NCBI RefSeq assembly: GCF_016863035.1
Contig: NZ_BOOC01000027.1
Location: 62,001-126,000 of the forward strand
Reading direction: 5' to 3'
Source: Microbispora corallina
GTDB taxonomy: Bacteria > Actinomycetota > Actinomycetes > Streptosporangiales > Streptosporangiaceae
Length of the DNA stretch: 64,000 nucleotides
Every line of letters begins with the position of its first letter. The stretch's first letter is position 1. Both the position numbers and the translations under genes were made by a program. Of this stretch, positions 10,376 to 49,480 are shown piece by piece. The notes beneath the pieces were generated by a model. That model ran no database searches, was not told the origin of the DNA, and worked only from the letters and a program-made list of their open reading frames with translations.

Positions 10376-10385
10376 ACGCAACCGC

Positions 10386-12082: not shown

Positions 12083-12329
12083 GATGATCGGGACCTTGCC
12101 TCTGCGTGTCATTGATTGAGTGGTAGCGAGATCCAGTGCCAGGTGCCGACCGGACATCGCTCGGCACGGGCCGTCTCGCCGGTCTTGACCAGCCGGCGCA
12201 CACCCGCTGCAGGACGTCCTGCACATCGGCTGCTCTTCTACTGGTTTCCGGGTGACGCGCCCGTTTCAGGGCGTGGTCGTCCGACGCCGCCACGTCCGTG
12301 ATGGCGCGTTGTGAACGTGCGGGTACAGG

Positions 12330-12665
12330 TCAGCCCGACTGGCTCTGGATCCGCTCGGCGATCCGCTTGATCCGCTGCAGCCGGGCATCCCAGGTCGCGC
12401 CGACCGCGGACAGCTGGGCGATCGCACGGGCGAGCTGCGCCTCGTCCACCTCATAGCGGCGCTCGCGCCCCGCCGGCCTCATGTGCACCAGGCCGACGCG
12501 GTCCAGCACACCGAGGTGCTTGGCGACCGCCTGTCGGGTGACGGGCAGCCGCTCGCTGAGCGTGGTCGCCGTAGCGCCTCCGTGGGCGAGGAGCAGGTCG
12601 AGCATCCGTCGGCGGGTCGGGTCGCCGACCGCGGACCAGAGGTCGTCATCGATCGCGGTGCTCAC
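12330..12665 (-). CDS. ArsR-family transcriptional repressor
   Basis: 111 residues. The winged helix-turn-helix spans about residues 8-85, with LWSAVGDPTRRRMLDLLLAH, the recognition region RLPVTRQAVAKHLGVLDRVG and the wing RPAGRERRYEVDEAQL. No metal-binding Cys cluster is present, so it belongs to the non-metal ArsR group usually paired with SRPBCC proteins. GTG at 12665 overlaps the stop of the upstream SRPBCC gene by 4 nt (GTGA), implying translational coupling. It probably autoregulates through the twin inverted repeats at 13146-13207. Confidence 0.92.
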   Translation of the reverse strand: MSTAIDDDLWSAVGDPTRRRMLDLLLAHGGATATTLSERLPVTRQAVAKHLGVLDRVGLVHMRPAGRERRYEVDEAQLARAIAQLSAVGATWDARLQRIKRIAERIQSQSG

Positions 12666-13126
12666 GGCTGCGCGACCACCTTGTCGGCGTAGGTGACGAG
12701 GCGCGGGAGGAAGATGTCCCAGCCGCGGACGTGGTCGAGATACGCCTCCTCCAACACGGCGCCCTCCCACCCGCGCTCGCGGAAGCCGGTCTCCTCAAAG
12801 CGCAGCAGCGTCCCGTCACCGGACGGAACGAGGTCGAAGGTGACGAGAAGGGAGTTGCCCGGCGCCGCCGGCTCGCCGTCGTCGTATATCCAGCGGAAGG
12901 CGAACCGGCGGGGGGGGTCAGCCTCCAAAACGATGAGCGGCTCGACCTTCGCGTCCGGCGAGGCTGGGTCGCCGAAGGTGACCGCGCCGGTGGCGCCGGG
13001 GACCGGGTCGAGCTCGGCGTCGTCGGGCCACCACTCGCGTAGGTGCTCGGGAGAGCTGATCACCTCGTAGACCACCTCGGGGGTGGCGTCAATCCGAAGC
13101 TCCCGCTGGATGCTTCCATACTCCAT
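12662..13126 (-). CDS. SRPBCC / AHSA1-like protein partnered with ArsR
   Basis: 154 residues of the AHSA1/START-like fold: RELRIDATPEVVYEVISSPE, EHLREWWPDDAELDPVPGAT, RRFAFRWIYDDGEPAAPGNS and the C-terminal helix VRGWDIFLPRLVTYADKVV. First gene of a two-gene operon with the ArsR repressor. In such pairs the SRPBCC protein is often thought to bind or process the inducer, but its ligand is unknown here. Start set at ATG 13126 (MEYGSIQRELRID) with AGGAAAG about 6 bp away; an in-frame ATG at 13150 would lie inside the first operator. Confidence 0.88.
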   Translation of the reverse strand: MEYGSIQRELRIDATPEVVYEVISSPEHLREWWPDDAELDPVPGATGAVTFGDPASPDAKVEPLIVLEADPPRRFAFRWIYDDGEPAAPGNSLLVTFDLVPSGDGTLLRFEETGFRERGWEGAVLEEAYLDHVRGWDIFLPRLVTYADKVVAQP

Positions 13127-13145
13127 GTGACTTTCCTGACATATG

Positions 13146-13162
13146 TGCAACTAACGGTTGCA
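13146..13162. promoter_or_regulatory. ArsR operator candidate, proximal
   Basis: TGCAACTAACGGTTGCA: perfect 6-bp arms around 5 bp. Twenty base pairs upstream of the SRPBCC start, and matched by a second copy 45 bp farther away. Spacing and symmetry fit a dimeric winged-helix repressor; the adjacent ArsR gene is the obvious candidate. Confidence 0.65.
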
Positions 13163-13190
13163 CGTCAGCTTATCCGGCACACCCCATCAA

Positions 13191-13207
13191 CGCAACCTTT
13201 CGTTGCG
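13191..13207. promoter_or_regulatory. ArsR operator candidate, distal
   Basis: CGCAACCTTTCGTTGCG: the same GCAAC-N5-GTTGC pattern as the proximal site with a different spacer, 45 bp upstream start to start. The unrelated spacers and conserved arms argue that the arms are what is selected. Confidence 0.6.
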
Positions 13208-13384
13208 CGTTGGGTTTCCGGGCAGCTCCCGGGCTTCGAACTGCCCCCGGGGCCCGAGCAGCCGGCCGTGTCCGCGCGGTGATTCCGGACAAAGCGGCGG
13301 CCGACCGCAAGGAACACAGGCCCTGCGGCGGCCGCCGATCAGCCGCGATCCACAGCTGCACAAAGAACGCAACAGCCATCGGGT

Positions 13385-13413
13385 GGATCCGAAGCCTCCT
13401 GGCTTGAAGATCC
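13385..13413 (-). terminator. hairpin downstream of purH
   Basis: GGATCCGAAGCC and GGCTTGAAGATCC form an imperfect stem with one bulge around a 4-nt loop, 17 bp past the purH stop. There is no U-run, as is usual in high-GC actinobacteria. The rest of the gap 13127-13429 holds the twin operators and nothing that looks coding. Confidence 0.35.
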
Positions 13414-13429
13414 GAACCCCGTACAGTCC

Positions 13430-14971
13430 CTAGTGGAAGAAGTGCCGGGTGCCGGTGAAGTAGAGCGTGATGCCCGCCTCCTTGGCGGCCTCGACGACCT
13501 GATCGTCCCGGATCGAGCCGCCCGGCTCGACGATCGCCTTCACCCCGGCCTCGGCGAGGACCTGCAGCCCGTCGGGGAACGGGAAGTAGGCGTCCGAGGC
13601 GCCGACGGAACCGGCGGCCCGCTCGCCCGCACGGGAGACCGCGAGGCGGGCCGAGTCGACCCGGTTGACCTGTCCCATGCCCACGCCCACGGTCGCGCCG
13701 CCGGAGGCCAGCAGGATGGCGTTCGACTTGACCGAACGGCAGGCCCGCCACGCGAACGCCAGGTCGGCCAGCACCTCCGGCGAGGCCGGCTCGCCCGTCT
13801 TCAGCTCCCAGGTGGACGGGTCGTCCCCCGGGGCGTCCGCCCGGTCGACCGTCTGGACGAGCAGCCCGCCGTCGATCCGGCGGAACTCGGCCGCGTTGGC
13901 CGGGCCCTGCGGGCAGGCGAGCAGCCGGATGTTCTTCTTCTCCCGCAACACGGCCAGGGCGTCCTGCGCGAACGACGGCGCCACGACGACCTCGGTGAAG
14001 ATCGGCGCGATCTGCTCGGCCAGCTCCCGGGTGACCTCGCGGTTGACCGCGATCACCCCGCCGTACGCGGACACCGGGTCGCACTCGTGCGCCTTGCGGT
14101 GGGCCTCGGTGACGTCGGCGCCGACCGCGATGCCGCAGGGGTTGGCGTGCTTGATGATCGCCACGCACGGCTGGTCGAAGTCCCAGGCCGCCCGCCACGC
14201 GGCGTCGGCGTCCACGTAGTTGTTGTAGGACATCTCCTTGCCGTGCAACTGCTCGGCCGTGGCGAGGCCGTCGCCCTGCCCGCCGTAGAGAGCCGCCCGC
14301 TGGTGGGGGTTCTCGCCGTACCGCAGGGGCGTCTTCAGCCCCCAGGTCGCGCCCATGAACGACGGCCAGTCCCCCTCGGGGGCGTACACGTTGGCGAACC
14401 AGGACGCCACGGCGACGTCGTAGGACGCGGTGTGGGCGTAGGCGACGGCCGCCAGCCGCCTCCGGTCGGTCAGCGTGAAGCCGCCCTCGCCGACGGCGGC
14501 GAGCACCTCCCCGTACGCCCCCGGGTCGACGACGACCGCCACGGTGCTGTGGTTCTTGGCCGCGGCGCGGATCATGGCCGGCCCGCCGATGTCGATCTGC
14601 TCGACGCACTCGGCGTCGGTGGCGCCGGAGGCGACCGTGGCGGCGAACGGGTAGAGGTTCACCACCGCGAGCTGGAACGGCTCGATCTCCAGTTCTTCCA
14701 GCTGCTTGACGTGGGAGGGGTTCTCCCCGTCGGCCAGCAGCCCGGCGTGGACCCGCGGGTGCAGGGTCTTCACCCGGCCGTCCAGGCACTCGGGGAAGCC
14801 GGTGAGTGACTCGACCTTGGTGACCGGCACGCCGAAAGAGGCGATCGCGGCGGCCGTGCCGCCGGTCGAGACGATCTCCACGCCCGCGGCCTCGAGCCCA
14901 CGGGCCAGGTCCTCCAGCCCGGTCTTGTCGTATACCGCGATCAGCGCGCGCCGGATGGCGATGCGGGTCAC
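13430..14971 (-). CDS. purH: bifunctional AICAR formyltransferase / IMP cyclohydrolase
   Basis: Performs the last two steps of IMP synthesis, formylating AICAR with 10-formyl-THF and closing the ring. 513 residues, the normal length. The N-terminal MGS-like cyclohydrolase domain ([48 protein letters not shown]) is followed by the AICAR transformylase domain ([69 protein letters not shown]). GTG start at 14971 overlaps the purN stop by 4 nt, so the two are translationally coupled. Confidence 0.97.
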
Positions 14972-15618
14972 GTCGTGGTCCTTCCTTCCGTCTCTGGCTT
15001 CACTGGGACCGGTCCCCGGGATCCGAGGCGAACGGTCCGTCCGGTCACGGTCCAGCCCTCTCGGGCCATCCGGCCGACGACATCGACGAGCAGCCCGCGC
15101 TCGACCTGCTTGATCCGCTCGTGCAGGGTCTCCTCGTCGTCCCCGTCCCGTACGGCGACGGCCTCCTGCGCGATCACCGGGCCCGTGTCCACCCCGGCGT
15201 CGACCAGGTGGACGGTGCAGCCGGTGACGCGGACCCCGTACGCGAGCGCGTCCCGCACGGCATGGGCGCCGGGGAACGCGGGCAGCAGAGCGGGATGCGT
15301 GTTGACGACGGGCGCCGAGGCCAGCACCCCAGGTCCGAGGATCTTCATGAACCCGGCCGAGACCACCAGGTCAGGCTTGTGCTCGGCGATCCTGGCGGCC
15401 AGGCTCTCGTCCCATTCGTCCCGGCCGGGATGGTCCCGGAGCCGCTCCACGAACGTGGGCACCCCGGCACGCTCGGCGCGGGCGAGACCCTCCACGCCGT
15501 CGCGGTCGGCGCCCACGGCGACGACCCTCGCGCCGTAGGCGTCGGAGGCGGAGGCGTCCAGCAGGGCTTGTAGGTTGGTCCCCGAACCCGAGACGAGGAC
15601 CACGAGCCGGAAGGACAG
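14968..15618 (-). CDS. purN: phosphoribosylglycinamide formyltransferase, probable CTG start
   Basis: Transfers a formyl group from 10-formyl-THF to GAR in purine synthesis. Signatures: [17 protein letters not shown] at the N-terminus, [20 protein letters not shown] with the catalytic His, and [18 protein letters not shown]. The family is about 190-215 residues and normally begins only a few residues before the VSGSGTN strand. Immediately upstream is AAGGAG, then 7 nt, then CTG at 15618 giving [13 protein letters not shown]; the nearest GTG is 19 nt from that ribosome site and upstream GTGs would add about 58 unrelated residues. CTG 15618 is therefore preferred, giving 216 residues. First gene of purN-purH. 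Confidence 0.9.
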
Positions 15619-15784
15619 GGCGGAACTCCTTCGTGAGCAGGCTTCGTTTTGCAGGTGATTACCGGGAGATGGTTCCGTAAGGTGGTCGGCGCAGAGGTTC
15701 CCCTCGACGCAGGTAAAGGGTATCCGGCGCCACCCCCCGTGCCCCACGACGGCCCGGGCTGAGGAAACGCGAGGCGAGGAGACC

Positions 15785-16189
15785 GTGACCACACCCCTTC
15801 AGATGACGGCCCCTGAGACCGGAGGCCGCAGGGCCCTCACCATCGCCATCATGGCGCTGGTCTTCACGCTGGTGCTCCCCGCGGCGGGGCTGGCGCTGTC
15901 CATCTTCGCGATCATCGTAGGCGTCCGGGACCTTCGGTCCCTGCAGCAGCGGCGCCAGCGGATCGGCATGGCGACCGGCGCCGTGGTGATCTCGTCGGTG
16001 GCGTTCATGCTCGGCGCGATCACCACCGTCTTCCAGCTGTACTTCTCCTCGGAGCTGTCGGCCTACACCGAGTGCAGGAAGGGCGCCGGCACCGTGGAGG
16101 CCCGGCAGGAGTGCTCGGACCAGCTGATGAAGTCGTTCGAGAAAAAGCTCGGAGTCGCCTGGCCGTCCGGCATCCCGGCGCCCTCCTGA
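15785..16189 (+). CDS. small membrane protein, DUF4190-like
   Basis: 134 residues with two membrane helices, about 17-45 (ALTIAIMALVFTLVLPAAGL) and 60-85 (GMATGAVVISSVAFMLGAIT), joined by a basic loop (RDLRSLQQRRQRIG). An external C-terminal domain has two Cys (ECRKG, QECSDQ) that could pair. The two-helix arrangement around a short Gln/Arg loop resembles DUF4190 proteins, but the match is by topology only. GTG at 15785 overlaps a GAGGAGA stretch. Divergent from purN and convergent with the DUF6350 gene. Confidence 0.75.
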   Translation: MTTPLQMTAPETGGRRALTIAIMALVFTLVLPAAGLALSIFAIIVGVRDLRSLQQRRQRIGMATGAVVISSVAFMLGAITTVFQLYFSSELSAYTECRKGAGTVEARQECSDQLMKSFEKKLGVAWPSGIPAPS

Positions 16190-16242
16190 CCCCGCGCCTC
16201 CCTGGCGGCCGTGACTCCGTGCAGCCCGGCGGCGGGGTGTGG

Positions 16243-17880
16243 TCAGTCGCGGTCCCAGGCGTACGGGTCCACGTAGATCACGTGGCCCCCGCGGTCGTCG
16301 GTCTCGTCGACGATGTCCCGTCGCGGCGCGCGCGGCGGCTCGGACCGGTCCTCCGGACGAGCCGGGGCGGGTGCGCGGCCGGCCGCCGCGGCGCCCGGCT
16401 CGAACGTCTCCGCCGCGGCCGCGGCGTGCTCGTCGGTCCAGTCGTCCCGGACGACCGGGATGGGCTGGGTGTCGGCCTCGGTGGCGTCGAGCCAGTGCCC
16501 GGGCAGGACCCGGCCCTTCGGCGGCCGGACCCGCCCGGCCGCCTTGGCTATCGCCGCGCCCGCCTTCTTGACCGGCTCGGGCGCGGCCGCGGGGCGGCGG
16601 GAGATCAGCCACCAGTTGGCGATCCCGGCCGAGATGCCGGCGGCCACGCCGACCTCCAGCGCCACCGAGAGGGCGACCTCCCACGGCGACGGGCCGACCG
16701 CCGACAGCCGGGCGCCGCCGAGCGGCCCGCCCGACAGCGCCGCCAGCACCCCCGCCGCGGCGCCCGAGCACAGCCCGCAGACGAACCCCCACAGCGGCGC
16801 CGCCTCGATCGTCGGCGTCGGCGCGATCCTCGCCACCAGCACGCCCGCCACCGCCCCCGCGGCGAACGGCACGGCGATCACCGCCATGACCCACGTGGGC
16901 GAGGGCCCGGGTGACGGGAGCGCGCCCAGCAGCGGCAGCGTGGGGACCGCGCTCAGCTTGACGCCCGTGGGCGCCACCAGCGTCCCGGTGCCGACGGCGA
17001 ACCCCGGCCCCGAGATGTACGCCATCCCCCAGATCACGGCGTTGCAGAGGTAGAGGCACTCCACGAGCAGGAGCAGCAGCCCGCCGACCAGCCCGGGGCT
17101 GAGCATTCCGGACAGCTCCTGGATCTCCCCGAAGTTCAGCACGACGGCGACGACGACGAGCACCGCGCCGGCCACGAGCAGCAGCGACAGGGCCGCCGCC
17201 GTCCCCACGACGACCGACCGGGGACGCTCCGGGAGCAGGCGCAGCATCGACCGCCAGGGCCCGATCGTCCGCACCGTGGCCACCGAGCCGGCGACGAACG
17301 CCAGAACCAGGTGGCTGGCCAGGGCCTCGCCGATGAACGGCTGGGTGACCTCGTTGCGCGCGACGAGCGCGATCACCCCCGCCAGCAGCGCGTACGGCGC
17401 GGCCAGCGAGATCCCGGCCTGGGCGACCAGCACGAGCTGGGCGCGGCGGCGGGCGTTCTCCACGTCCCGCGGGGTGCCCTTGGGGAGCCGGGCGGGCATG
17501 CGCACGCGCAGGTCGGCGTCGCGGGCCATCCACAAACCGGCCCGGTAGAGCAGCGTCCCGGGCAGCACCATCAGCCCGAGGGGCAGCAGGCCGACCCGGC
17601 CGCCGGGGATGGCGAAGCCCGCGTGGTGGGCGGCGAGCCACAGCTGGCACGCCGTACGGAAGACCCCGGCGAGCCCCTCCCCCAGCGGGGTGCGCGGCGC
17701 GGCGATCCAGCCGACGAGCGTGAGCGTGGTGAGGACGGCGAGGCCGACGCCGAGGGTGGCGACCGCGGCCAGCATGCCGGAGACGGGGAGCGGACGGCGG
17801 GTCTCCTCCTCGTCGCCGAGGGGGAGGCGGCTGAGGACGGCACGGGGGGCGGTCCGGAGCTGATCGAGAAGACCCGTCAC
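16243..17880 (-). CDS. polytopic membrane protein, DUF6350 family
   Basis: 545 residues with about ten hydrophobic segments between residues 35 and 425 (for example VSGMLAAVATLGVGLAVLTT, VVVGTAAALSLLLVAGAVLV, GLVGGLLLLLVECLYLCNAV), then a hydrophilic acidic tail of about 110 residues ending DPYAWDRD. Gene order next to purN-purH and sucCD and the membrane pattern fit the actinobacterial DUF6350 family, sometimes labelled PerM-like; no biochemical role is established. GTG start at 17880 with GGGAGG at about 10 bp. The disordered tail suggests a cytoplasmic interaction region. Confidence 0.8.
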   Translation of the reverse strand: MTGLLDQLRTAPRAVLSRLPLGDEEETRRPLPVSGMLAAVATLGVGLAVLTTLTLVGWIAAPRTPLGEGLAGVFRTACQLWLAAHHAGFAIPGGRVGLLPLGLMVLPGTLLYRAGLWMARDADLRVRMPARLPKGTPRDVENARRRAQLVLVAQAGISLAAPYALLAGVIALVARNEVTQPFIGEALASHLVLAFVAGSVATVRTIGPWRSMLRLLPERPRSVVVGTAAALSLLLVAGAVLVVVAVVLNFGEIQELSGMLSPGLVGGLLLLLVECLYLCNAVIWGMAYISGPGFAVGTGTLVAPTGVKLSAVPTLPLLGALPSPGPSPTWVMAVIAVPFAAGAVAGVLVARIAPTPTIEAAPLWGFVCGLCSGAAAGVLAALSGGPLGGARLSAVGPSPWEVALSVALEVGVAAGISAGIANWWLISRRPAAAPEPVKKAGAAIAKAAGRVRPPKGRVLPGHWLDATEADTQPIPVVRDDWTDEHAAAAAETFEPGAAAAGRAPAPARPEDRSEPPRAPRRDIVDETDDRGGHVIYVDPYAWDRD

Positions 17881-18024
17881 GCTACCCCATCCTCCCAGCC
17901 GCGGCCGCTCCTTCCGTGGCGCCACGCCGTCCGGTTCACCTCGGCGCGCCTCGCGGCTCGCGCGGTAAGTCGAGGCGGTACCCCACCCCGCCCGCCGTAC
18001 GGCCGCGGGGTCCCCGGAAACGGC

Positions 18025-18060
18025 CGCGACCCCGCACCCGGGCACGGGTGCGGGGTCGCG
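18025..18060 (-). terminator. strong hairpin terminator of the sucCD operon
   Basis: A perfect 15-bp stem, CGCGACCCCGCACCC (18025-18039) with GGGTGCGGGGTCGCG (18046-18060), around the 6-nt loop GGGCAC. It lies 34 bp past the sucD stop. There is no U-tract, as in the I-shaped terminators common in actinobacteria. Confidence 0.8.
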
Positions 18061-18093
18061 AACGACGCGGTGCCCTCGCGGACGCGCGATGCG

Positions 18094-18969
18094 TCAGCGC
18101 GACTGCATGATCTCCCGCATGAGGCGGGCGGTCTCGCTGGGGGTCCGGCCGACGCGGACGCCGACCTTCTCCAGGGCCTCCTTCTTGGCCTGCGCGGTGC
18201 CGGCGGAACCGGAGACGATCGCGCCGGCGTGACCCATGGTCTTGCCCTCGGGCGCGGTGAAACCGGCCACGTACGCGACGACGGGCTTGGTCACGTGCTC
18301 GTCGATGAAGGCCGCGGCCCGCTCCTCGGCGTCGCCGCCGATCTCGCCGATCATGACGATGGCGTCGGTGTCCGGGTCCTCCTGGAACGCCTGGAGGGCA
18401 TCGATGTGGGTGGTGCCGATGACCGGGTCGCCGCCGATGCCCACGGCCGTGGAGAAGCCGTGGTCACGCAGCTCGTACATGAGCTGGTAGGTCAGCGTGC
18501 CCGACTTGGACACCAGGCCGATGCGGCCGGGCGTGGTGATGTCCGCCGGGATGATGCCGGCGTTCGACGCGCCGGGCGAGGCGATGCCGGGGCAGTTGGG
18601 ACCGATGATGCGGGTCGTGTTGCCCTTGGAGACGGCGTACGCCCAGAACTCGGTGGTGTCGTGCACCGGGACGCCCTCGGTGATGACGACGCAGAGCGGG
18701 ATCTCGGCGTCGATGGCCTCCCGCACCGCGTCCTTGGTGAACGCCGGGGGCACGAACACGACCGACACGTCGGCGCCGGTCTTCTCGATCGCCTCGGCGA
18801 CCGTTCCGAAGACGGGCAGGCCCTCGTGCACGGTGCCGGCCTTGCGGGCGTTCACACCGCCGACGACCTTCGCGCCGGCCGCGAGCATGCGGCGGGTGTG
18901 CTTGGTGCCCTCCGCGCCGGTCATGCCCTGAACGATGATCTTGCTGTTCTCGGTGAGCCAGATGGCCAT
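18094..18969 (-). CDS. sucD: succinyl-CoA synthetase alpha subunit
   Basis: Forms succinate and a nucleoside triphosphate from succinyl-CoA with SucC. 291 residues, normal length. CoA-binding Rossmann region ([34 protein letters not shown]), the ligase segment [13 protein letters not shown] and the phosphohistidine loop near the end ([13 protein letters not shown], active-site His). ATG at 18969 shares its A with the sucC stop (TAATG), so the subunits are translationally coupled. Followed by a strong hairpin at 18025-18060. Confidence 0.97.
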
Positions 18970-20150
18970 TACGCACCTACCGCTGCGAGCTCGGCGGCGC
19001 GCTTGGCCGCTTCGTCCATGGTGTCCACAAGCTCGACGCGCGGGAGGCCCGCGTCGGCGAGGATCTGCCGCCCGAGGGCGGCGTTGTTGCCGTCCAGGCG
19101 GACGACCAGCGGGTGGGTCACGTCCTCGCCCCGGCTCTTCAGCAGGTTGAACGCGGAGACGATGCCGTTGGCGACCGCGTCGCAGGCGGTGATGCCGCCG
19201 AAGACGTTCACGAAGACCGACTTGACCGACGGGTCGGACAGGATGATCTCCAGGCCGTTCGCCATGACCTCGGCCGACGCGCCGCCGCCGATGTCGAGGA
19301 AGTTCGCCGGCCGCGGCTGGCCCGGGAAGGCCTCGCCCGCGTACGCCACGACGTCCAGGGTGGACATGACCAGGCCGGCGCCGTTGCCGATGATGCCGAC
19401 CGTGCCGTCCAGCTTGACGTAGTTGAGGTGCTTCTCCTTGGCCTTCGCCTCGAGCGGGTCCTCGGCGGCCTTGTCGACGTAGGCCTGGTGCTCGGCCTGG
19501 CGGAAGTTCGCGTTCTCGTCGAGGGTGACCTTGCCGTCGAGGGCCTTCACCTGGCCGTCGGCCGACAGGATCATCGGGTTGACCTCGACCAGCGAGGCGT
19601 CCTCGTCGACGAACACGGCCCAGAGCTTCTCGATGAGCTCCGCGGCGCCGTCGAGCGCCTGCTGCGGCAGGCCGCCGGCCTGCGCGATCTCGCGGGCCCT
19701 GGCGCGGTCGACACCCGTGATCGGGCTGACCGGGATCTTGGCGACCTTCTCCGGAGCGGTGTGCGCGACCTCTTCGATGTCCATGCCGCCGGACGCCGAG
19801 CAGATGGCGAGGAAGGTCCGGTTGGCGCGGTCGAGGAGGAAGGAGAAGTAGTACTCCTCCGCGATCTGGCTGGCCTCCTCGATCAGGACCTTGTGGACCG
19901 TGTGGCCCTTGATGTCCATGCCGAGGATCGTGCTCGCCTTCTCGTACGCGTCGGCGGCGTCGTCGGCCACCTTCACGCCGCCGGCCTTGCCCCGGCCGCC
20001 GGTCTTGACTTGGGCCTTGACGACAACCCGGCCCGTCAGCTGCTCGGCAGCCGCCCGCGCCTCCTCCGCGGTGTGCGCGACGATTCCGCGCGGCACCGGG
20101 ATGCCGTACTCCGCGAAGAGCTCCTTCGCCTGATGTTCGAACAGGTCCAC
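18969..20150 (-). CDS. sucC: succinyl-CoA synthetase beta subunit
   Basis: ATP-grasp subunit that binds the nucleotide and succinate. 393 residues. [20 protein letters not shown] at the start, [20 protein letters not shown] in the ATP-grasp domain, [20 protein letters not shown] for Mg binding and [19 protein letters not shown] in the ligase domain. GTG at 20150 is chosen because homologues start at this point and AAGGGA lies about 9 bp upstream; a longer frame extends to 20213 without support. The gene upstream encodes a B12-binding mutase subunit, fitting a propionate/isobutyrate-to-succinyl-CoA route. Confidence 0.97.
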
Positions 20151-39912: not shown

Positions 39913-40066
39913 GAAGGTAAGAATGACTACGGTCGGTAGCCGACGACGCGCTCTTCGGTAACAGGCAGGGCATCTCGTTGCCACTTCTTGACCTTTTCCC
40001 CACCTAGGTAAATCGTCCGTCAACCGAGTAGCGGATCCGTTACAGTGCGTGTTCCAAGGGGGGAAC

Positions 40067-41638
40067 ATGCCGGTTGTCACGCTGTACCGGCGGCTGCAGG
40101 GGCGGCTGCCGTCGTGGGAGACCACACCGCGCTCCGCGCTCATCCGCGAGGACGCGAGCCCGCTCCAGGCCCAGCGCGAGACGCTCGACCTCGTCTGCGC
40201 GCTGCTGTCGGGCGCCTCGGTGCCGTACTTCTGCGTCCGTCCGCTGCCGGGCCGCCCGCCCGCCGTCGCCGTCCCGGAGGACGAGCGCACCCGGGCGATC
40301 GCGGCGCTTGCCCGCGGCGGCCACCCGCTGGTCGCGGCCCGCCAGCCGTACGGCAGGCAGGGGGCACGGCGGGCCGAGGCCGGCAGGATGCGCCCGCTGC
40401 GGCGCGCCGCGGCGATACTGGAGGACGCCCGCGTGGTCCGGCTCGCGATGTTCTTCGCCAGCCCGTCCCGGACCCTCACGCTCGGCCCCGAGCACGGCTG
40501 CGACCTGGAGTTCTGGTCGCGTGAGGGCGACCTGCTCATCGCGCCCCGGCCCAACCACGCCTGCGACGCCGTCCCGGTCGACGGCGAGGTGGTCGACGGC
40601 GGCGAGGAGCTGTTCAACCCGCTGGTGACGCCCGCGCAGCGGATGCGGGCCTACCCGACGCGGCCCGAGTTCACCCGGCGGCTCGTCGACGACATCGCCT
40701 TCCCGATCGACGCGGTCTACACGTGGGTCGACGGCGACGACCCGGCGTGGCGGGCCCGCCGCGACCGCGCCCTCCGTTCGAGCCGGCCCGACCTGCGGCT
40801 GAGCGAGCTGGCCACCACCGAGGCCCGCTTCACCAGCCGCGACGAGCTGCGGTTCTCGCTGCGCTCGCTGACGATGTACGCGCCGTGGATCAACCGGGTG
40901 TGGATCGTCACCGACGGCCAGACGCCCCGGTGGCTCGACACCACCCACCCGATGGTGACCGTGGTGCACCACAAGGAGATCTTCCGCGACCCCTCGGTGC
41001 TGCCGGTGTTCAACTCGCACGCCATCGAGACGCAGTTGCACCACATCGAGGGGCTGTCGGAGCACTTCCTCTACCTGAACGACGACTTCTTCCTGGGCCG
41101 TCCGCTGCTGCCGCGGACGTTCTTCGAGGGCAACGGCATCACCCGGTTCTTCCCCAGCACGGTCCACGTGCCGTTCGGCGCCCCCGAGCTGGAGGACTCG
41201 CCCGTCCACGCGGCCGGCATGAACAACCGCCGCATGCTGGAGGACCTGAGCGGCCGCACGCTCACCCAGAAGCTCAAGCACGTGCCGTACGCGCTGCGCC
41301 GCTCGCTGATGTACGAGCTGGAGCAGCGGTTCGCGGCCGAGTTCGACGCGACCTCCCGCAGCGCGTTCCGCACCTCGTCCGACATCTCCGCGGTGTCGTC
41401 GCTCGCGCACTACTACGGCTACCTGAGCGGGCGGGCCGTCCCCGGCTCGGTCGAGTACACCTACGTCGACCTGTCGCTGCGCAAGACGCCCGGCAAGCTG
41501 CGCCGGATGCTGGCCGCGCGCCGCCACGACGTGTTCTGCCTGAACGACACCGCCCCTACCACCCCCGAGCAGGACGCCCTGCTGGCGCGGTTCCTGGAGG
41601 CCTACTTCCCGACCCCGTCGCCGTTCGAGCTGACCTGA
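40067..41638 (+). CDS. Stealth-family sugar-phosphate transferase
   Basis: 523 residues with the four conserved Stealth regions: FPIDAVYTWVDGDDPAWR (CR1), RFTSRDELRFSLRSLTMYAP and IVTDGQTPRWL (CR2), HIEGLSEHFLYLNDDFFLGR (CR3), and a C-terminal part with DISAVSSLAHYYGYLSG (CR4). The family transfers hexose-1-phosphate or similar from UDP-sugars to build capsule or wall polymers with phosphodiester links. The first 210 residues, also found in actinobacterial members, are less conserved. ATG 40067 (MPVVTLYRRL) follows AAGGGGGG. The 3' end overlaps the convergent GT-C gene by 37 bp. Confidence 0.93.
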   Translation: MPVVTLYRRLQGRLPSWETTPRSALIREDASPLQAQRETLDLVCALLSGASVPYFCVRPLPGRPPAVAVPEDERTRAIAALARGGHPLVAARQPYGRQGARRAEAGRMRPLRRAAAILEDARVVRLAMFFASPSRTLTLGPEHGCDLEFWSREGDLLIAPRPNHACDAVPVDGEVVDGGEELFNPLVTPAQRMRAYPTRPEFTRRLVDDIAFPIDAVYTWVDGDDPAWRARRDRALRSSRPDLRLSELATTEARFTSRDELRFSLRSLTMYAPWINRVWIVTDGQTPRWLDTTHPMVTVVHHKEIFRDPSVLPVFNSHAIETQLHHIEGLSEHFLYLNDDFFLGRPLLPRTFFEGNGITRFFPSTVHVPFGAPELEDSPVHAAGMNNRRMLEDLSGRTLTQKLKHVPYALRRSLMYELEQRFAAEFDATSRSAFRTSSDISAVSSLAHYYGYLSGRAVPGSVEYTYVDLSLRKTPGKLRRMLAARRHDVFCLNDTAPTTPEQDALLARFLEAYFPTPSPFELT

Positions 41639-43101
41639 GACCCGGCGGCGTCGTAGCGCGCCACGAACAGGCCCCTCGACGTCCACCTGCCGCCGGGGAC
41701 GAACGTCCGGCGGACCAGGTCGAGCCGCCAGCTCGCCGCCTTACCCGTGTGGCCGACCACCCACAGCGTGCGGACGCCCGCCAGGCGCGCCGCCAGCACG
41801 CGGGAGCCGGCGTCCCGGCCGCCGAACGTCCCGTCGCGGCGCGGCGACCGGACCAGGGCGACGTCGTCGAGCCGCCCGAAGACGCCCGGGTAGACGACCT
41901 CGTACTTGCGCACCTTCGCCGGCACGAACAGCACGGCGTCACCCGGCCGCGCCTGGGCGCCCAGCAGCGCGATCACCGGACGCGGGTCGTCCTGGCGGCC
42001 GTCCGGGCCCCGGGTGGCCAGCTGCCCGGGGACCGACAGGCCCGCGGCGGCCGCCATCGCCGCGACCGCGACCCGGGCCGGCGCCGCGGCGAGCCCCGCG
42101 CCGGCGAGCAGCGCGGCGGCGGGCACGCAGCACAGCACGTACCGGAACACGTAGACCGGGTGCGCCGCCCACGACACGGCCAGCAGCGCGGCCGGCGGCA
42201 GCAGCAGCCACGGCAGCGCCACCCGGACGAGCAGACCCGTGGCCGGGGACCCGGCGACCGCGCGTGCCGCTCGCAGCGGCGACCGGACGGCTCCCACGAC
42301 GGCCAGCGCCGCCACGAGCGGGGCGACCCCCAGCCAGGCGGGCGTGGCCGCGCCCAGGTCCCCGAAGAGCTGCACGGCCAGCATGCCGACGTCGCCGGCG
42401 TCCGGCCGGGTGATCCAGCCCACCTGCGCGCTCTGCCGGGACGCCAGCCATCCGAGCGGCGCCGCGAGCGCCAGGCCCGGCACGACGGCGAGGCACCACC
42501 GCGCGAACGGCCCCCGGCACAGCAGGACCGCGATGCCGTGGGCCGCCGGAACGAGAATCGCGAACAGGTTGAGGTACGCCAGGGCGGCCACCGACAGGCC
42601 GTACACCGCGAATGCTCCGGGCGTGGGCCCGCGCAGCGCGCGGACGAGGAGCAGCGTCGCGCCGACGGCGGCCGCCATGGTCAGCGCGTACGGCCGGGCC
42701 TCCTGGGAGTAGCGGGAGAAGACCGGCATCAGCGCGAGCAGCGACCCGCCGTACAGGCCGGCCCGAGGGCCGCCGAGAGCCCGGCCGAGGGCGCCGGTCC
42801 CGGCCGCGGCGAGCACCCCGGCGACGACCGACGGCAGCCGCAGGGCCACGATGCCGGTCCCGCCGAGGGCGACCACGACGTGCGCGAGCGCGTAGTAGAG
42901 CCCGTGCACCGCGTCCACGTGACGCAGCAGGTGGACGGTCTCGGGCAGGCTCCGGGCCGCCGCGCTCACGGTCGCCGCCTCGTCGCGCCACACCGGGGGC
43001 CCGGCGAGGCTCCACAGGCCCGCCGCGAGGGCCAGCGCGGCGGGGACCAGCACCGCGACGGGCACTCCGGGCGCGGTGGCGCGCAGCGGCGTCGGGCTCA
43101 T
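41602..43101 (-). CDS. GT-C fold polytopic glycosyltransferase (mannosyltransferase/PMT-like)
   Basis: 499 residues with about ten membrane helices up to residue 370 and a soluble C-terminal domain of about 120 residues. The first external loop WRDEAATVSAAARSLPETVH carries the D-E motif of GT-C enzymes such as ArnT and protein mannosyltransferases; YSQEARPYALTMAAAVGATL is another family hallmark. They use lipid-linked sugars (polyprenyl-phosphate mannose or similar) outside the membrane. ATG 43101 overlaps the stop of the upstream TagF-like gene by 4 nt. The open frame extends far upstream but only as antisense noise. Confidence 0.88.
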   Translation of the reverse strand: MSPTPLRATAPGVPVAVLVPAALALAAGLWSLAGPPVWRDEAATVSAAARSLPETVHLLRHVDAVHGLYYALAHVVVALGGTGIVALRLPSVVAGVLAAAGTGALGRALGGPRAGLYGGSLLALMPVFSRYSQEARPYALTMAAAVGATLLLVRALRGPTPGAFAVYGLSVAALAYLNLFAILVPAAHGIAVLLCRGPFARWCLAVVPGLALAAPLGWLASRQSAQVGWITRPDAGDVGMLAVQLFGDLGAATPAWLGVAPLVAALAVVGAVRSPLRAARAVAGSPATGLLVRVALPWLLLPPAALLAVSWAAHPVYVFRYVLCCVPAAALLAGAGLAAAPARVAVAAMAAAAGLSVPGQLATRGPDGRQDDPRPVIALLGAQARPGDAVLFVPAKVRKYEVVYPGVFGRLDDVALVRSPRRDGTFGGRDAGSRVLAARLAGVRTLWVVGHTGKAASWRLDLVRRTFVPGGRWTSRGLFVARYDAAGSQVSSNGDGVGK

Positions 43102-45992
43102 GCGAGCATCCGCGCGACCACGCGCGCCGAGGCGTGCCCGTCGTCCCAGGGACAGTAGCGCCCGGCGAAGTCCTGGTAGCGCTCCTTGTAGGGGCAGAAG
43201 TCGGCGGCGGCCAGGACGCCGACCAGGTCGTCCGGGGTCCTGACGAGGGGGCCGGGGGCCTCCGCCTCGACGTCCAGGTAGAACCCGCGGACCTCGTCGC
43301 GGTAGCGCTCCAGGTCGGGCGTGAAGAAGATCATCGGCCGCCCGGTGCACGCGAAGTCGAACATGGCGGACGAGTAGTCGGTGACGAGCACGTCCGCCGC
43401 CGCCAACAGCTCCGCCATGTCCGGAAATTTCGTGACATCGATGGCGGGGGCGGGGATCACGGTCCGGCCGGCCATCAGGTAGTGGGCGCGCACGAGCAGC
43501 ACGTCCCCGCCCCCCAGCGCCGCGGCCACCCGGCCCGCGTCGAGCGGGAGGCCGGGCCGGTCGAGCTCGTCGTCCCGCCAGGTGGGGGCGTACAGCACGG
43601 CCCTGCGGCCCTCGGGGACGCCGAGGCGGCGCCGGGCCCGCTCCCGCGCCTCGGGCCGGAAGAGCACGTCGTTGCGCGGGTAGCCCGACTCCAGGACCTC
43701 GCCGTCGTACCCGAAGGCCCGCCGCAGGATCGGCGTCGAGAACGGGTTGGGCGACACCAGCACGTCCCAGGTCGCCACCTGGCCGGCCAGGTCCTCCTCC
43801 GGGATCTTCTGGGCGTACGGCATGTCCCGCGCGTCGCGCGCCAGCCGCTTGAGGGGGGTGCCGTGCCAGGTCTGGACGTACAGCTGACCGGCCGGCTTGC
43901 CGTACCAGCCGGGCTGGGTGCGCCTGTTGGCCACCACGTATCGGGAGGTGTGCAGGGCCTCCTCGTGCTCGCGGGAGCCGTACAGGACCGTGCGGACCCC
44001 CGGCGGCACGGCGAACTGGCCGTCGCGGGTGACCCAGATCCGCTCCACGTCCGGGTCGCGGCGCGCCAGCTCCTCCGAGACGGCGCGGGGGTTGCACGAG
44101 TACTGCCCGCCGCCGTAGCTGTCGAAGACGGCGGCCTCCCTGAGGGCCGTCCGCACGCGCGGGGCCTCGCGCCGCCTGCGGGTGGCGTACGGCCCGCGCT
44201 CGTCGGGCGCGAGAGCCGGGCGGACGACGACGCTGAGCCCCGACTCCTTGTCGGTGCGGAGCGACACCTCGTGCACGCCGGACCTGTGCGGGGCCGGCGG
44301 GTCGGCCACCAGGGCCTCGGCCAGGCGGACCCGCTCGCCGCCGGCCAGCACCCGCCACGTGCCCCGTGCCAGCGGCAGCCCGTCCGCGGTGCGGCCGATC
44401 ACGGCCGTCCACCCGCCGTCGTGCGGACGCAGCGGCCATGAGTGCGCCTCGGTCCCCCGTTCGAGGGTGATCCGGTCCGTGTGGCCGCCGCCCGCGCCGG
44501 TCAGCGTCAGCTCGCCCGCCTCCGTCCAGCCCACCCCGGTCACCAGCGGGCCCAGGTCGCCGGACGCCTCCACGGGGGCGGCCTCGCGCAGGACGAGGCC
44601 GCGCTCCCGGGTGAGGGCGACCTGCAGGGCACCGGCGCGGAAGACCCGCTCGCCGGCGTCCGGCCCGCCCGTCACGCGGCCCGACCTGACGACCCCCCGC
44701 GCGCGGACCCGGGCGTGCAGGGCCCATCGCCCCGCGGGCAGGGCCCCGGCGTCGACCTCCGTCGCGAAGCCGGACTCGTCGTGGCAGGCCGCCGATTGGC
44801 GGGAGTCCGCGGTCACGTCGGGCCTCGAGATCCGCCGTACGGGCAGGGGAAGCCGGCGGTTCCCCGCCTGCAGCCACAGCTCGACACGGCTGCGCCGGCT
44901 GTCGAGGTGCGCGATGTAGGCGTGGCCGGCGACGCGCAGCACGCCGTCGGCGTGCCGGACGTCGTCGACCCGGGCGCGAAGCTCCAGGTCGCGTTCCGCG
45001 TCGAAGAGGTGGGCGGGCAGGCGGCGGTCGTGGCGCAGGGGGTAGTCCATCGCGAGGCGCCGCCGCGTCAGCCCGGCGCGGACCACGCCGTGGTCCCGGA
45101 GGCGGGTCTCGGCGAACTCCCGCAGCCCGGCCAGCTCCTCCGCCATGCCGTGCACGGCCAGGAAGAGCTGGAGCCGCCGCAGCGCCGGGAGGCGTCCCAC
45201 CGCCTCCGGGTCGAGGCGGGCCAGGCGCGGCGCCAGTTCGGCCAGCGTCTCGAGCGGAGCGTGGTCGAGCACAGCGGCGAGGGCGTCCGACTCCGCAAGC
45301 CGCCGGTCGTACTCCCCCTTCAGGTCCTCCGCGTGCCGGGCGACCGTCTCCGCGACCTCCAGCATCGCGGCCAGGCGGTCGGCGGGCCGCGCGGGGCGGG
45401 GACACGCGTGGGGACGGGTGAGGCAGACCACCTCGGCGAGCACGTCGGTCGAGCGCGACAGCGCCTGGGCGGGGACGGTGACGGGGAAGTCCTCCTCGAT
45501 CCCCTCGCGGAACGCCAGCCCGTGGGCGTCCCAGAACGTCCTGCGGAACGCCTTGGTCGCCGCCGCCGTGTCGTCGAGGAGCCCGGGGTCGCGCCGTGCG
45601 CGGGTGCGCAGGACGTCTCCGGACGTCCGGAGGGGACGCCCCCCGAGGCGGGCGGCCCGCCCGCAGGCGAGGTCGGAGCCGGTGGCGTCAAGCGCCTCGA
45701 CCAGCCTCCGGTACGCGTCGGCGGGGACGACCGCGGCGGGGTCGGCGAACGCGAGGTAGGCGCCGGTGGCCCGGGCCGCCCCCGCGTTCCGAGCGGCCGA
45801 CGTGTCACTCCCTCCAGGCGGCGGGATCAGCGTCACGTTCGGGTCGCGGACGGCGTCCGCGCCCGGACGGCCGACGAGGAGGACCTCCATGTCCTGGAGG
45901 GTCTGGTCGCGCAGCGAGCTGAGGCATTCCTCGATGTGCTCCTCGTCGCCCAGCAGGGGAACGACCACCGAGAGCCTGGGGGACACGGTCAC
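43098..45992 (-). CDS. GT2-like / CDP-glycerol glycerophosphotransferase fusion; GT-A motifs lost, TagF-like motifs intact
   Basis: 964 residues. The N-terminal GT-A-like domain (about 5-220) aligns with the next gene's GT2 domain but its motifs are changed: VGRPGAD replaces VDDGSPD at about 40-46 and FADPAA replaces FLDSDD at about 82-87. A middle of about 400 residues has beta-rich repeats. The C-terminal domain (about 590-964) keeps the TagB/TagF signatures: QTWHGTPLKRLARDARD, VLYAPTWRDDELD, LLVRAHYLM and VLVTDYSSAMFDFACTGRP. It is therefore predicted to polymerise or attach glycerol-phosphate (or ribitol-phosphate) units but not to use a nucleotide sugar. GTG 45992 chosen; 45986 possible. 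Overlaps the next gene by 4 nt. Confidence 0.9.
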   Translation of the reverse strand: MTVSPRLSVVVPLLGDEEHIEECLSSLRDQTLQDMEVLLVGRPGADAVRDPNVTLIPPPGGSDTSAARNAGAARATGAYLAFADPAAVVPADAYRRLVEALDATGSDLACGRAARLGGRPLRTSGDVLRTRARRDPGLLDDTAAATKAFRRTFWDAHGLAFREGIEEDFPVTVPAQALSRSTDVLAEVVCLTRPHACPRPARPADRLAAMLEVAETVARHAEDLKGEYDRRLAESDALAAVLDHAPLETLAELAPRLARLDPEAVGRLPALRRLQLFLAVHGMAEELAGLREFAETRLRDHGVVRAGLTRRRLAMDYPLRHDRRLPAHLFDAERDLELRARVDDVRHADGVLRVAGHAYIAHLDSRRSRVELWLQAGNRRLPLPVRRISRPDVTADSRQSAACHDESGFATEVDAGALPAGRWALHARVRARGVVRSGRVTGGPDAGERVFRAGALQVALTRERGLVLREAAPVEASGDLGPLVTGVGWTEAGELTLTGAGGGHTDRITLERGTEAHSWPLRPHDGGWTAVIGRTADGLPLARGTWRVLAGGERVRLAEALVADPPAPHRSGVHEVSLRTDKESGLSVVVRPALAPDERGPYATRRRREAPRVRTALREAAVFDSYGGGQYSCNPRAVSEELARRDPDVERIWVTRDGQFAVPPGVRTVLYGSREHEEALHTSRYVVANRRTQPGWYGKPAGQLYVQTWHGTPLKRLARDARDMPYAQKIPEEDLAGQVATWDVLVSPNPFSTPILRRAFGYDGEVLESGYPRNDVLFRPEARERARRRLGVPEGRRAVLYAPTWRDDELDRPGLPLDAGRVAAALGGGDVLLVRAHYLMAGRTVIPAPAIDVTKFPDMAELLAAADVLVTDYSSAMFDFACTGRPMIFFTPDLERYRDEVRGFYLDVEAEAPGPLVRTPDDLVGVLAAADFCPYKERYQDFAGRYCPWDDGHASARVVARMLA

Positions 45993-46045
45993 GCCGCAAG
46001 GATGCCTACGGGGCCGCGGCCGCCATCGGGCGTACCTCCATTGCC

Positions 46046-49000
46046 TTACGCGTCCTTGGCCCATCCTTGACCGAAGACCCGCTCGGCCAGGCGCGCGGCG
46101 GCCCGCCCGTCGGCGAGCGGGCGGTAACGGGCCAGGAACGCCTCCATCGGGCCGGCGTGCTTGCCGGCCACCTCCTCCAGGTCGCGGATCGCGCCGGCCA
46201 CCTCGCCGGCCCCGCCCAGCGCGGGCCCCGGGACGTCCGGGTGCGGCAGCAGGTCGGCCGCGTGCAGGATCACCGGGCGTCCGGTGACGGCGAAGTCGAA
46301 CGCCGCCGCCTCGTCGCCCGTCACGAGCACGTCCGCGGCCGTGTACAGGCCGTACGGGTCGGGGTAGGCCGACACGTCCCGCGCCGCGCCCCCGGGCCGT
46401 GCCGGCAGGGGCGGCACGCCCGGCGGGCGCCACACGAGCACCTCGTGGTCCTCGCCCAGGACTGCGGCGACCCCGGCGGCGTCGAGCGGCGGCCCGTCGC
46501 CGGGGACGTACAGCACCACCCGGGTTCCCGGCCGCAGGCCGAGCCGCCGCCCCACCCCGGCCGCGCCCGTGTCACCGCGGAGACCGAGGTCACCCCCGAG
46601 CGCGGGATCGCCGTACGGCGCCGTCCTGAGCAGGTCGTCGCAGGGCAGGCCGGTCTCCAGGATCTCCCCGGTGAAGCGGAACGCCTCCCGCAGCAGCGGG
46701 GTCCACCAGGGCCCGGCCGACACCAGGTGCGTCCACTCCCCGGCGCTCTCCGCGAGCCGGTCCAGCCGGCGCTCCGCGGCCTCGCTCTCCGGGCCCGCGC
46801 AGGGCGAGGCGAGCGCCGCCGGGGACCCGTGCCAGGTCTGGACGACCACCTGGCCGGAGCGCCGGGCGAACCACGGCGGCAGCGGGTCGTCCACGACCAC
46901 GTAGCGGCAGCGGGCCAGCGCCTCGTAGTGCTCGCGGCCCAGCGACCGCACAGGGTCGACGCCCTCGGGCAGGGCGACCTGGCCGTCCCGCACGTGCCAC
47001 AGGAACTCCAGGTCGGTCCCCCGCCGCCGCAGCTCCTCGTAGACGGCCCGCGGGCTGCCGGCGAACCGGGTCCCACCGGCCGAGCTGAAGAAGACGGCCT
47101 CGCGCAGCGGCCTGCCCCGCATGGCCGGGTACGCCGCGGTGCGCAGCTCCCACTGCGCCTTCTTCCCGCGCTCGTTGCCGGCCAGGTCGCCGCTGACGGA
47201 CAGCACGGCCCGCCCCCGCGGGTCCGCGTCCAGCTCGAACGTCCGGCTGGCCGTCTCGTGGACCATCGGCGACTCCGCGTCGAGCTCCACCGGCAGGTCC
47301 CCGCCCCCCTTCACCCGTACGGCGAGGCCGTACCGGCCCTTGGGCAGCGGCAGCAGCCCGGCGAGCGAGCCGACGCGCTCAGGGGTCAGCCGGGCGCGGA
47401 ACCGGGTGCCCGACCCCTCGACCGGCGCGAGCCGCTCGTCGGGCCGGTCGAGCGCGGTGACGACGAGCCCCTCCACCTCCTGCGGCAGCGAGAACCGGCC
47501 CTCGATCAGCAGCTCGCCCCCGGGCAGCCACTCGGCGAGGTCGGCGAACGCGGCGACCGGCTGGTCCCGCAGGACGAGCCGGCCCGACCGCTCGCGCATG
47601 ACGGCGATCTCGCGGCCCGCGAGCGGATGGCGGCCGGGAGGCAGGTCGTCCATCGCCGTCACGGGGAACGTCCCACCGGCGCCGCGCACCTCGACCGTCC
47701 ACTCGGGCGGCAGGTCGGGCAGCGCGGGCTCCCGGCCGTCCGGGCGCCGCGGCGGCAGGAGGTCGTTCAGGTCGACGGTCGCCTCGAACGTGCGCCGGTC
47801 GGTCCTGACCGGGTACGTGAGCGGCGTCCCGCCCGGCCGCCGGGTGACCAGGAGGACGGGGTCCGGGCCGAAGTCGGCCAGCACGGTGCCGACCAGGCGG
47901 AGCAGGTCGCCCCTGACGCTCTGCGTCGCCACCCGGGCCGCCTCCCTCTCGGCGTCGACGACCAGGTCGCCGGTCTCGCTCAGCAGCGGCGCGACGTACC
48001 GGTCCTGGCCCACGGCACGGCAGCCGACGCGGGCGACCCAGGTCGCGCGGGGGTCGGCGAGCCTGCCCTGCCTCACGGTGCCGCGGTTGACCACGCGCAC
48101 CTCGACGTGCCACCGCCCGAGCCGGCCGGCGCGGGCGACGAGCGCGGGGTCGACGACGATGCGGAAGCCGCCCCAGTCCTGCTCCCGGCCCTGCCGCGCC
48201 GACACCCGGGTGCGCGTGACCGCGGCGGGGACGCGGATCCGCCTCCCGGTGCGCTCGTGCACGAGGGCGGCGAACACCCGTTGGTGGAAGCGCCCGGCCG
48301 GCCGGAGGAAGGGGGACGCGGCCCTGCCCTCGAGCACGAGCCTGTCGTCGGCCCACCGCACCGAGTCGAGGCGGAAGCGGGGGGCGATCTCGTCCCGCAC
48401 CCGGGTGACCGCGGCGGGGACCCCCCGGCCGCCCCCGCGCGGCAGCGGGACGTCGAGGTGGTGGCCCCACAGTCCGCGGACGACCCGCCGGTCGGGCTCG
48501 ACCGTGCGGTCCCACTCGACGACGTCGGCGAGGTCCCGCGGCCGCCGCGCCCGGACCAGGTGCCACTCCACCCGCCGCAGGGCGGGCAGCGCGTCGAGGA
48601 CCGGCGCCGCCACGTCGTCCAGGTACGCGTCGGCCAGGTCGAGGAACCGGGCCTGGAACTCCTCCGACCCCTGGTCGAACACGTCGAGGAAGTTGGTGAG
48701 GTCGCTCTCCAGGACGGCCTGGTCCCAGGCGTGGATGTGGGCCGTCAGGTTGTGCTCGGCCAGGAAGCGGCGCACCGCGGCGACCGCGGCGAACCGGTCC
48801 GCCAGGTGCCCGGTCCTCGCCTTGTCCTGGGTGATAGAACGGCCGCCCGCGTCACGCTCCCGCCACACGTACACGGGCGCCGGGAGCACGTCGACCGAAC
48901 GGGCCAGGAAGTGGGCGCGCAGCGCTACCGCGATGTCCTCGTACAGCACGCCCTCGGGGAAGGCGAGGGCGTGCGCGTCCCAGAACGAGCGGCGCCACAG

Positions 49001-49480
49001 CTTGTTGGTGACGAGCCGGTCGCGCAGCAGCGCGCGGTTCCTGGTGATGTGGGTGGCGCGCCCCGGCCGGGCGAACACGGGCCGGTGCATGGCGGACGGC
49101 CGGGTCCGGCGGCCGTCGTAGCGCGTCACGTTCCCGGTCGCGATGTCGGAGCCGGTCTCCAGCAGCGAGGCCGCCAGGTAGTCGAGCGCGTGGACCGGCA
49201 GCAGGTCGTCGCTGTCCAGGAACATCAGGAAATCGCCCGTCGCGTACCGGATCCCCGTGTTGCGCGCCGCGCCCAGCCCCCCGTTGTCCCGGCGGACCAG
49301 CCGGAACCGGTCGTCGCGCGCCGCGAAGCCGGCCGCGATCTCCGCGCTCGCGTCCGGCGACCCGTCGTCCACCATGACGACCTCGAGGTCCTGCCAGGTC
49401 TGGACGGCGACCGACCGCAGGCAGGCCGCGAGGTAGGGTTCCACGTCGTAGATCGGGACGATGACGCTGATGCGAGGCAC
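46046..49480 (-). CDS. GT2 / CDP-glycerol glycerophosphotransferase-like fusion; GT-A intact, TagF-like motifs lost
   Basis: 1144 residues. The N-terminal GT2 domain is intact: RISVIVPIYDVEPYLAACLR, VVMVDDGSPDAS (Asp38-Asp39), GLGAARNTGIRYATGDF and MFLDSDDLLP (Asp89, 91, 92). The middle of about 500 residues is beta-rich. The C-terminal TagF-like domain keeps the first His (VVQTWHGSPAALASP). The second catalytic segment reads VLVWRPPGV where its neighbour has LLVRAHY, and VLVTGDEAAAFDF replaces VTDYSSAMFDF. Predicted to be an active sugar transferase with an inactive or repurposed CDP-glycerol domain. ATG 49480. It lies 53 bp upstream of the gene with the opposite defect. Confidence 0.9.
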   Translation of the reverse strand: MPRISVIVPIYDVEPYLAACLRSVAVQTWQDLEVVMVDDGSPDASAEIAAGFAARDDRFRLVRRDNGGLGAARNTGIRYATGDFLMFLDSDDLLPVHALDYLAASLLETGSDIATGNVTRYDGRRTRPSAMHRPVFARPGRATHITRNRALLRDRLVTNKLWRRSFWDAHALAFPEGVLYEDIAVALRAHFLARSVDVLPAPVYVWRERDAGGRSITQDKARTGHLADRFAAVAAVRRFLAEHNLTAHIHAWDQAVLESDLTNFLDVFDQGSEEFQARFLDLADAYLDDVAAPVLDALPALRRVEWHLVRARRPRDLADVVEWDRTVEPDRRVVRGLWGHHLDVPLPRGGGRGVPAAVTRVRDEIAPRFRLDSVRWADDRLVLEGRAASPFLRPAGRFHQRVFAALVHERTGRRIRVPAAVTRTRVSARQGREQDWGGFRIVVDPALVARAGRLGRWHVEVRVVNRGTVRQGRLADPRATWVARVGCRAVGQDRYVAPLLSETGDLVVDAEREAARVATQSVRGDLLRLVGTVLADFGPDPVLLVTRRPGGTPLTYPVRTDRRTFEATVDLNDLLPPRRPDGREPALPDLPPEWTVEVRGAGGTFPVTAMDDLPPGRHPLAGREIAVMRERSGRLVLRDQPVAAFADLAEWLPGGELLIEGRFSLPQEVEGLVVTALDRPDERLAPVEGSGTRFRARLTPERVGSLAGLLPLPKGRYGLAVRVKGGGDLPVELDAESPMVHETASRTFELDADPRGRAVLSVSGDLAGNERGKKAQWELRTAAYPAMRGRPLREAVFFSSAGGTRFAGSPRAVYEELRRRGTDLEFLWHVRDGQVALPEGVDPVRSLGREHYEALARCRYVVVDDPLPPWFARRSGQVVVQTWHGSPAALASPCAGPESEAAERRLDRLAESAGEWTHLVSAGPWWTPLLREAFRFTGEILETGLPCDDLLRTAPYGDPALGGDLGLRGDTGAAGVGRRLGLRPGTRVVLYVPGDGPPLDAAGVAAVLGEDHEVLVWRPPGVPPLPARPGGAARDVSAYPDPYGLYTAADVLVTGDEAAAFDFAVTGRPVILHAADLLPHPDVPGPALGGAGEVAGAIRDLEEVAGKHAGPMEAFLARYRPLADGRAAARLAERVFGQGWAKDA

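Follow-up and report, generated by a model that had tools for sequence, protein, structure and literature searches.

Reciprocal loss of catalytic motifs in two neighbouring GT-A/TagF-like fusion proteins of Microbispora corallina

Gene layout and motif state of the two proteins

We analysed a stretch of 64,000 nucleotides of Microbispora corallina (the window; contig NZ_BOOC01000027.1, positions 62,001 to 126,000 of the forward strand), in which two genes, lying head to tail on the minus strand with 53 bases between them, encode large proteins that combine an N-terminal glycosyltransferase domain of the GT-A type with a C-terminal TagF-like domain (Table 1). We call them protein A, whose gene comes first, and protein B; both genes start with GTG, that of B at position 45992. 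In both, Pfam recognizes an N-terminal Glycos_transf_2 (GT2) and a C-terminal Glyphos_transf (PF04464) domain, and the scores of B (50.8 and 329.3 bits, respectively) are the mirror image of those of A (127.5 and 131.3 bits), the curated cut-off of PF04464 (22.1 bits) being exceeded by both. The NCBIfam TarF equivalog cut-off of 550 is reached neither by B (220.9) nor by A (77.4), and the TarL equivalog cut-off of 1000 is not reached by B (74.6). The two proteins are homologous to each other at both ends, in segments of 35% and 34% identity.

Table 1. Proteins A and B, their domains and their motifs (window positions)
Feature	Positions	Strand	Remarks
Protein A, 1144 amino acids	46046..49480	-	GT-A (predicted live), beta-rich middle, TagF-like (predicted dead)
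A GT-A domain, residues 1-325	48506..49480	-	Fold of TarS/TarP/RmlT
A DDGS motif, residues 38-41	49358..49369	-	Intact (within VDDGSPD)
A DSDD motif with DxD, residues 89-92	49205..49216	-	Intact (within FLDSDD)
A middle region, residues 326-785	47126..48505	-	Mainly beta (secondary structure of AlphaFold model)
A TagF-like domain, residues 786-1140	46061..47125	-	Catalytic motifs lost, predicted fold kept
A VWRPPG, residues 1016-1021	46418..46435	-	Site of the second catalytic His in B and TagF (alignment)
A TGDEA, residues 1054-1058	46307..46321	-	In place of TDYSS
Protein B, 964 amino acids	43098..45992	-	GT-A (predicted dead), middle, TagF-like (predicted live)
B GT-A-like domain, residues 1-300	45093..45992	-	Degenerate, predicted fold kept
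B GRPGAD, residues 41-46	45855..45872	-	In place of DDGS
B FADPAA, residues 82-87	45732..45749	-	In place of the DxD segment
B middle region, residues 301-612	44157..45092	-	AlphaFold model
B TagF-like domain, residues 613-962	43107..44156	-	Motifs intact; 34% identity to S. epidermidis TagF
B His710	43863..43865	-	Aligned with TagF His444 (alignment); Asn in the 3l7j sequence
B His837	43482..43484	-	Aligned with TagF His584 (alignment); Ala in the 3l7m sequence
B DYSS, residues 872-875	43368..43379	-	Alignment

A bifunctional GT-A/TagF-like polymerase has a GT-A domain with DxD and, in its TagF-like domain, both catalytic histidines. Protein A has the former, YED being intact as well, and lacks the complete histidine pair: the first is still present (QTWHG), and the position of the second aligns to the Arg or Pro of VWRPPG. 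Protein B has both histidines (H710 and H837), and the DDGS acids and the second Asp of DxD are gone from its GT-A-like domain, in which D84 and the ED acids remain. The corresponding TagF residues, H444 and H584, are named as catalytic in PMC5974469. The title of PDB entry 3l7m says H548A, while its sequence differs from that of TagF at the RMHYL histidine, H584 in the numbering of PMC5974469; the title is probably a slip.

A first-pass annotation had read these motifs by eye, and translations of the open reading frames and alignments bear out its readings exactly. Its statement that each protein has lost the motifs of the opposite domain is right as to the mirrored loss and can be refined in two details: A keeps the first TagF histidine and B the ED acids.

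Conservation in Microbispora and its relatives

The pair is present in 14 of 15 Microbispora genomes, neither protein being matched in the fifteenth (G012, 810 contigs, 92% complete). All 14 A proteins have intact GT-A motifs (DxD as DSD in 12 and DGD in two) and have lost TDYSS and at least one catalytic histidine, so that none carries both. In M. corallina and M. oryzae the first histidine alone survives, and it is lost in the other 12; at the second position M. rosea shows a histidine, and in four more proteins there is one that may be shifted by a residue. In all 14 B proteins DDGS and DxD are lost and the second Asp is absent, the ED acids are kept and the TagF motifs are intact. B and A lie on one contig, adjacent or near, in every genome with the pair (for G014, in which A is split over two contigs, this holds for the TagF half, read separately).

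Outside Microbispora, the reciprocal pattern recurs in all four named Planotetraspora species, in which the second-histidine segment of A is missing and TDYSS has become TDCSR or TDYSR; a further Planotetraspora-coded genome (G090) gave no match to B, and its A is changed in both domains. Related genomes were where the first-pass annotation had proposed to look for the same losses, and the Microbispora and named Planotetraspora genomes have them. Genome-specific decay or sequencing error is ruled out by the 14 Microbispora genomes together with the other genera.

In both Sphaerimonospora genomes the TagF-like domain of A is degenerate and the open frame of B is only 785 or 801 amino acids long, its GT-A core gone; tblastn found no GT-A sequence of B before residue 238 (L093) or 251 (L089). 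In genome G053 (a single 4.2 Mb contig) A stops before the TagF domain, which is thus wholly absent, and B has lost DDGS, retaining a DxD-like DGD and the ED acids. In Microtetraspora (five loci of five) the GT-A domain of A is intact and its TagF domain partly changed (QTRHG in three, QTRNC in two; RRH and TDYSS kept), and B has intact TagF motifs and, apart from one protein with YQD in place of YED, intact GT-A motifs; judged from its motifs, Microtetraspora B looks still bifunctional. Both orthologues were seen in 26 genomes. With deletions counted, the state is reciprocal in 21 of these; the remaining five are Microtetraspora.

The distance between the genes of A and B was measured in 22 other pairs; with the stop codon counted, it is 61-295 bases in 18 of these. 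At L089 (6843-9935) about 3 kb with an 845-amino-acid open frame on the opposite strand lie between the two genes, and at L069 (11106-17063) some 6 kb with further open frames; both genes are kept in each.

For a wider view we used 136 non-redundant GT2/TagF fusions, a non-random set of related rows selected for their resemblance to A and B, which omits rows without a whole domain (Sphaerimonospora B, G053 A). Both motif sets are found in 79, GT motifs are lost in 37 (two of these rows, L088 and L090, minus strand, being cut by the locus end), TagF motifs in 16 and both in four; by this reading of motifs, fusions with one dead half are frequent among the sampled relatives. A profile of A matched at least 270 of 297 genomes of the family at 1e-60, and B, as a single-protein query of 13 chosen genomes and 296 genomes of the class, matched 74 of the 296 at 1e-60. 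Of fourteen further stretches of the class sample, several held half-degenerate fusions and none an additional reciprocal A/B pair; among the genomes sampled, fully reciprocal neighbouring pairs are confined to Microbispora, Planotetraspora, Sphaerimonospora and G053.

Other arrangements were met in the same search. A distinct fusion of 1230-1432 amino acids, with degenerate GT-A and intact TagF motifs, occurs at 20 loci of many genus codes of the family (L155, L163-L177, L179-L182), and no second TagF-like open reading frame of at least 250 amino acids was found in these stretches. L208 (G333, another family; 755-17423) has five TagF-like open reading frames in a 19-kb stretch: one is an intact fusion, another is GT-degenerate, two are TagF-degenerate and the fifth has no GT-A domain. 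L145 (G283; 8939-19309, minus strand) has three tandem fusions, of which two look intact in both domains and the third has a damaged DxD.

Phylogeny, constraint and predicted folds

Trees of the TagF domain (117 rows), the GT-A domain (112 rows) and full-length proteins (46 rows), the two domain trees being FastTree trees with long-branch warnings, agree in placing A-type and B-type proteins in old separate clades, each with relatives that have both motif sets intact. An approximately unbiased (AU) test rejected the grouping of the pair's A and B rows together, a group named after the trees had been seen (p 5.2e-5). Recent tandem duplication followed by division is ruled out by these trees and this test. 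Since each clade has motif-intact relatives, the fusion is older than its duplication, and the duplication far older than the losses; A and B are old paralogues of a bifunctional GT-A/TagF fusion. The duplicated bifunctional enzyme of the first-pass annotation is thus upheld as a fusion ancestor, the 79 fusions with both motif sets speaking for it, and not as a recent duplicate that divided. The TagF domain of A appears to have decayed first, and recurrently within the A clade (G206 and G223 included), and a single loss seems to account for the GT-A domain of B, on the branch that led to Microbispora, Planotetraspora, Sphaerimonospora and G053 once Microtetraspora had separated.

The ratio of non-synonymous to synonymous substitution rates (dN/dS) was determined in nine Microbispora comparisons, with species recurring among the pairs and a bias of synonymous change from the high G+C content: it is higher in the TagF than in the GT-A domain of A in eight, and higher in the GT-A than in the TagF domain of B in all nine. 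All values are below 1. Identity between Microbispora and Planotetraspora is 72% for the GT-A against 55% for the TagF domain of A, and 50% against 69% in B. The motif-less domains drift faster, yet are under weakened purifying selection in Microbispora; the other genera speak against simple relaxation, since in them dN/dS of A is higher in the TagF domain in only one of three Planotetraspora and none of two Microtetraspora comparisons. In single-chain AlphaFold models both motif-less domains keep their folds. That the degenerate domains are retained, as first supposed, is supported for this pair by predicted fold and by selection.

Structure comparison led from the GT-A domain of A to TarS, TarP and RmlT, and from B to TagF of S. 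epidermidis (PDB 3l7i-3l7m), with which the C-terminal domain of B shares 34% identity (2.8 A) and both catalytic histidines; the TagF-like domain of A, in contrast, is without the motifs. These folds point to one pathway. The product of TagF is poly(glycerol phosphate); S. aureus TarS and TarP and L. monocytogenes RmlT are solved proteins not known to be fused to a TagF-like domain, and their chain lengths in the structure comparison fit.

A proposed division of two reactions between A and B

We consider it fairly probable, from motifs and models, that the two reactions of one enzyme are now spread over A and B and proceed in trans. Both would descend from GT-A/TagF-like bifunctional transferases making sugar-phosphate cell-wall polymers; A would have lost TagF-type phosphotransfer and B GT-A glycosyl transfer, so that A would add sugar and B polyol (or sugar) phosphate, in trans, to one cell-wall polymer, the two either alternating on the growing chain or acting as polymerase and decorator. 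In favour of this reading are the reciprocal losses and deletions in 21 of 26 genomes, the mirrored identities of the domains between genera, the short distance between the two genes in most pairs and the folds that lead to one pathway. The motif states and their conservation, the phylogeny, the retained predicted folds and the weakened selection are the observed basis; we infer the inactivity of the motif-less domains, the action on the same polymer and the identity of that polymer.

A published experiment offers a close likeness: DxD and His mutants of Cps1B, when mixed, brought polymer synthesis back to wild-type level in vitro (Litschko et al., 2018; PMC5974469), and in A and B such a mixture of single-domain mutants seems to have become fixed in nature, which makes the pair directly testable. 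According to that paper, CslB, Cps1B, Cps12B and Ccs2 have, like A and B, an N-terminal GT-A and a C-terminal TagF-like domain in one chain; in these capsule polymerases, however, both domains are active in one protein, whereas one motif set is destroyed in each of A and B, and the middle consists of TPR repeats in most of them and is long and beta-rich in the pair. Human EXT1-EXT2, the heparan sulfate polymerase, also joins two homologous bi-domain transferases, with four domains of which one is a pseudo-domain without its Asp residues, but the families are unrelated, EXT1 keeps both activities and the loss is one-sided, nearer to the Microtetraspora than to the Microbispora state (PMC9675754). 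We found no description of a reciprocal bacterial pair in the open-licence literature searched, by titles and abstract starts among the matches listed. The first-pass annotation, which knew of none, stands as regards a natural pair, the artificial version working in trans and EXT1-EXT2 being a one-sided parallel; as far as these sources go, trans-complementing single-domain mutants are known and the natural reciprocal pair would be new.

Several observations weigh against a division in trans. Loss of GT and loss of TagF motifs are not significantly exclusive among the 136 fusions (Fisher p 0.43). A and B are more than 1 kb apart in four of the 22 other pairs measured, and in G053 the GT-A loss of B is read from DDGS only, since the DxD-like DGD is kept. 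Genomes G206 and G223 have A-type proteins without the first TagF histidine and no B orthologue was found in them, so that the decay of A does not need B. Finally, M. corallina itself has a 969-amino-acid GT2/TagF fusion with both motif sets intact (C22; L066, 2962-5868, minus strand) and a TagF-like protein without GT-A domain (C14), and A or B could therefore act with other enzymes.

The obligate hetero-complex of the first-pass annotation, with dead domains kept for docking, membrane binding or substrate holding, is in our view rather doubtful: constraint on these domains may do no more than keep the remaining chain in solution, and neither is needed everywhere, as the GT-A core of B is gone in both Sphaerimonospora and the TagF domain of A in G053, which also denies generality to the idea of each protein keeping a dead domain as scaffold. 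An obligate partnership is put in question, too, by the decayed A-type proteins of G206 and G223. It is unlikely that the dead domains are relics heading for deletion and that A and B serve separate polymers with other GT or TagF-like proteins; the frequency of half-degenerate fusions and the presence of C22 and C14 fit such separate partners, but A and B stay together on one contig throughout Microbispora, even with inserted genes (G013), and in G090, which gave no match to B, both domains of A are altered. Very improbable is activity of the "dead" domains by other chemistry (GT-A catalysis without a metal, or phosphotransfer by different residues), for which could be cited D84 and the ED acids of B, the absence of DxD from some GT-A enzymes, the second-position histidine of M. 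rosea A and H1012 of M. corallina A, about seven residues before that position, but against which stand the TDYSS replacements differing by species (TGDEA, TGHGE, AGDVA), the absence of a Microbispora A with both histidines or of any histidine between residues 1013 and 1072 of M. corallina A, and the deletions in relatives.

Returning to a division of reactions in trans, we tentatively propose its history: of two ancient paralogous fusions, A may have lost its TagF domain to decay while B was bifunctional, as in Microtetraspora, the GT-A domain of B may have followed, and the dead halves may then have been deleted in different genera, the outcome being a fully reciprocal, complementing pair. 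If true, an enzyme became partner-dependent through complementary decay, with the intermediates alive in one bacterial family; extant relatives would then display steps by which a bifunctional enzyme may give way to two interdependent proteins, a subject that is mostly discussed on the strength of models. Caution is also due in annotation, where domain matches call A and B bifunctional though each appears half dead.

Near the pair lie genes for another GT2, a mannosyltransferase-like protein and an acyltransferase, and a Stealth-family protein with the conserved regions CR1-CR4 is encoded next to it on the opposite strand (window positions 40049-41638, plus strand).
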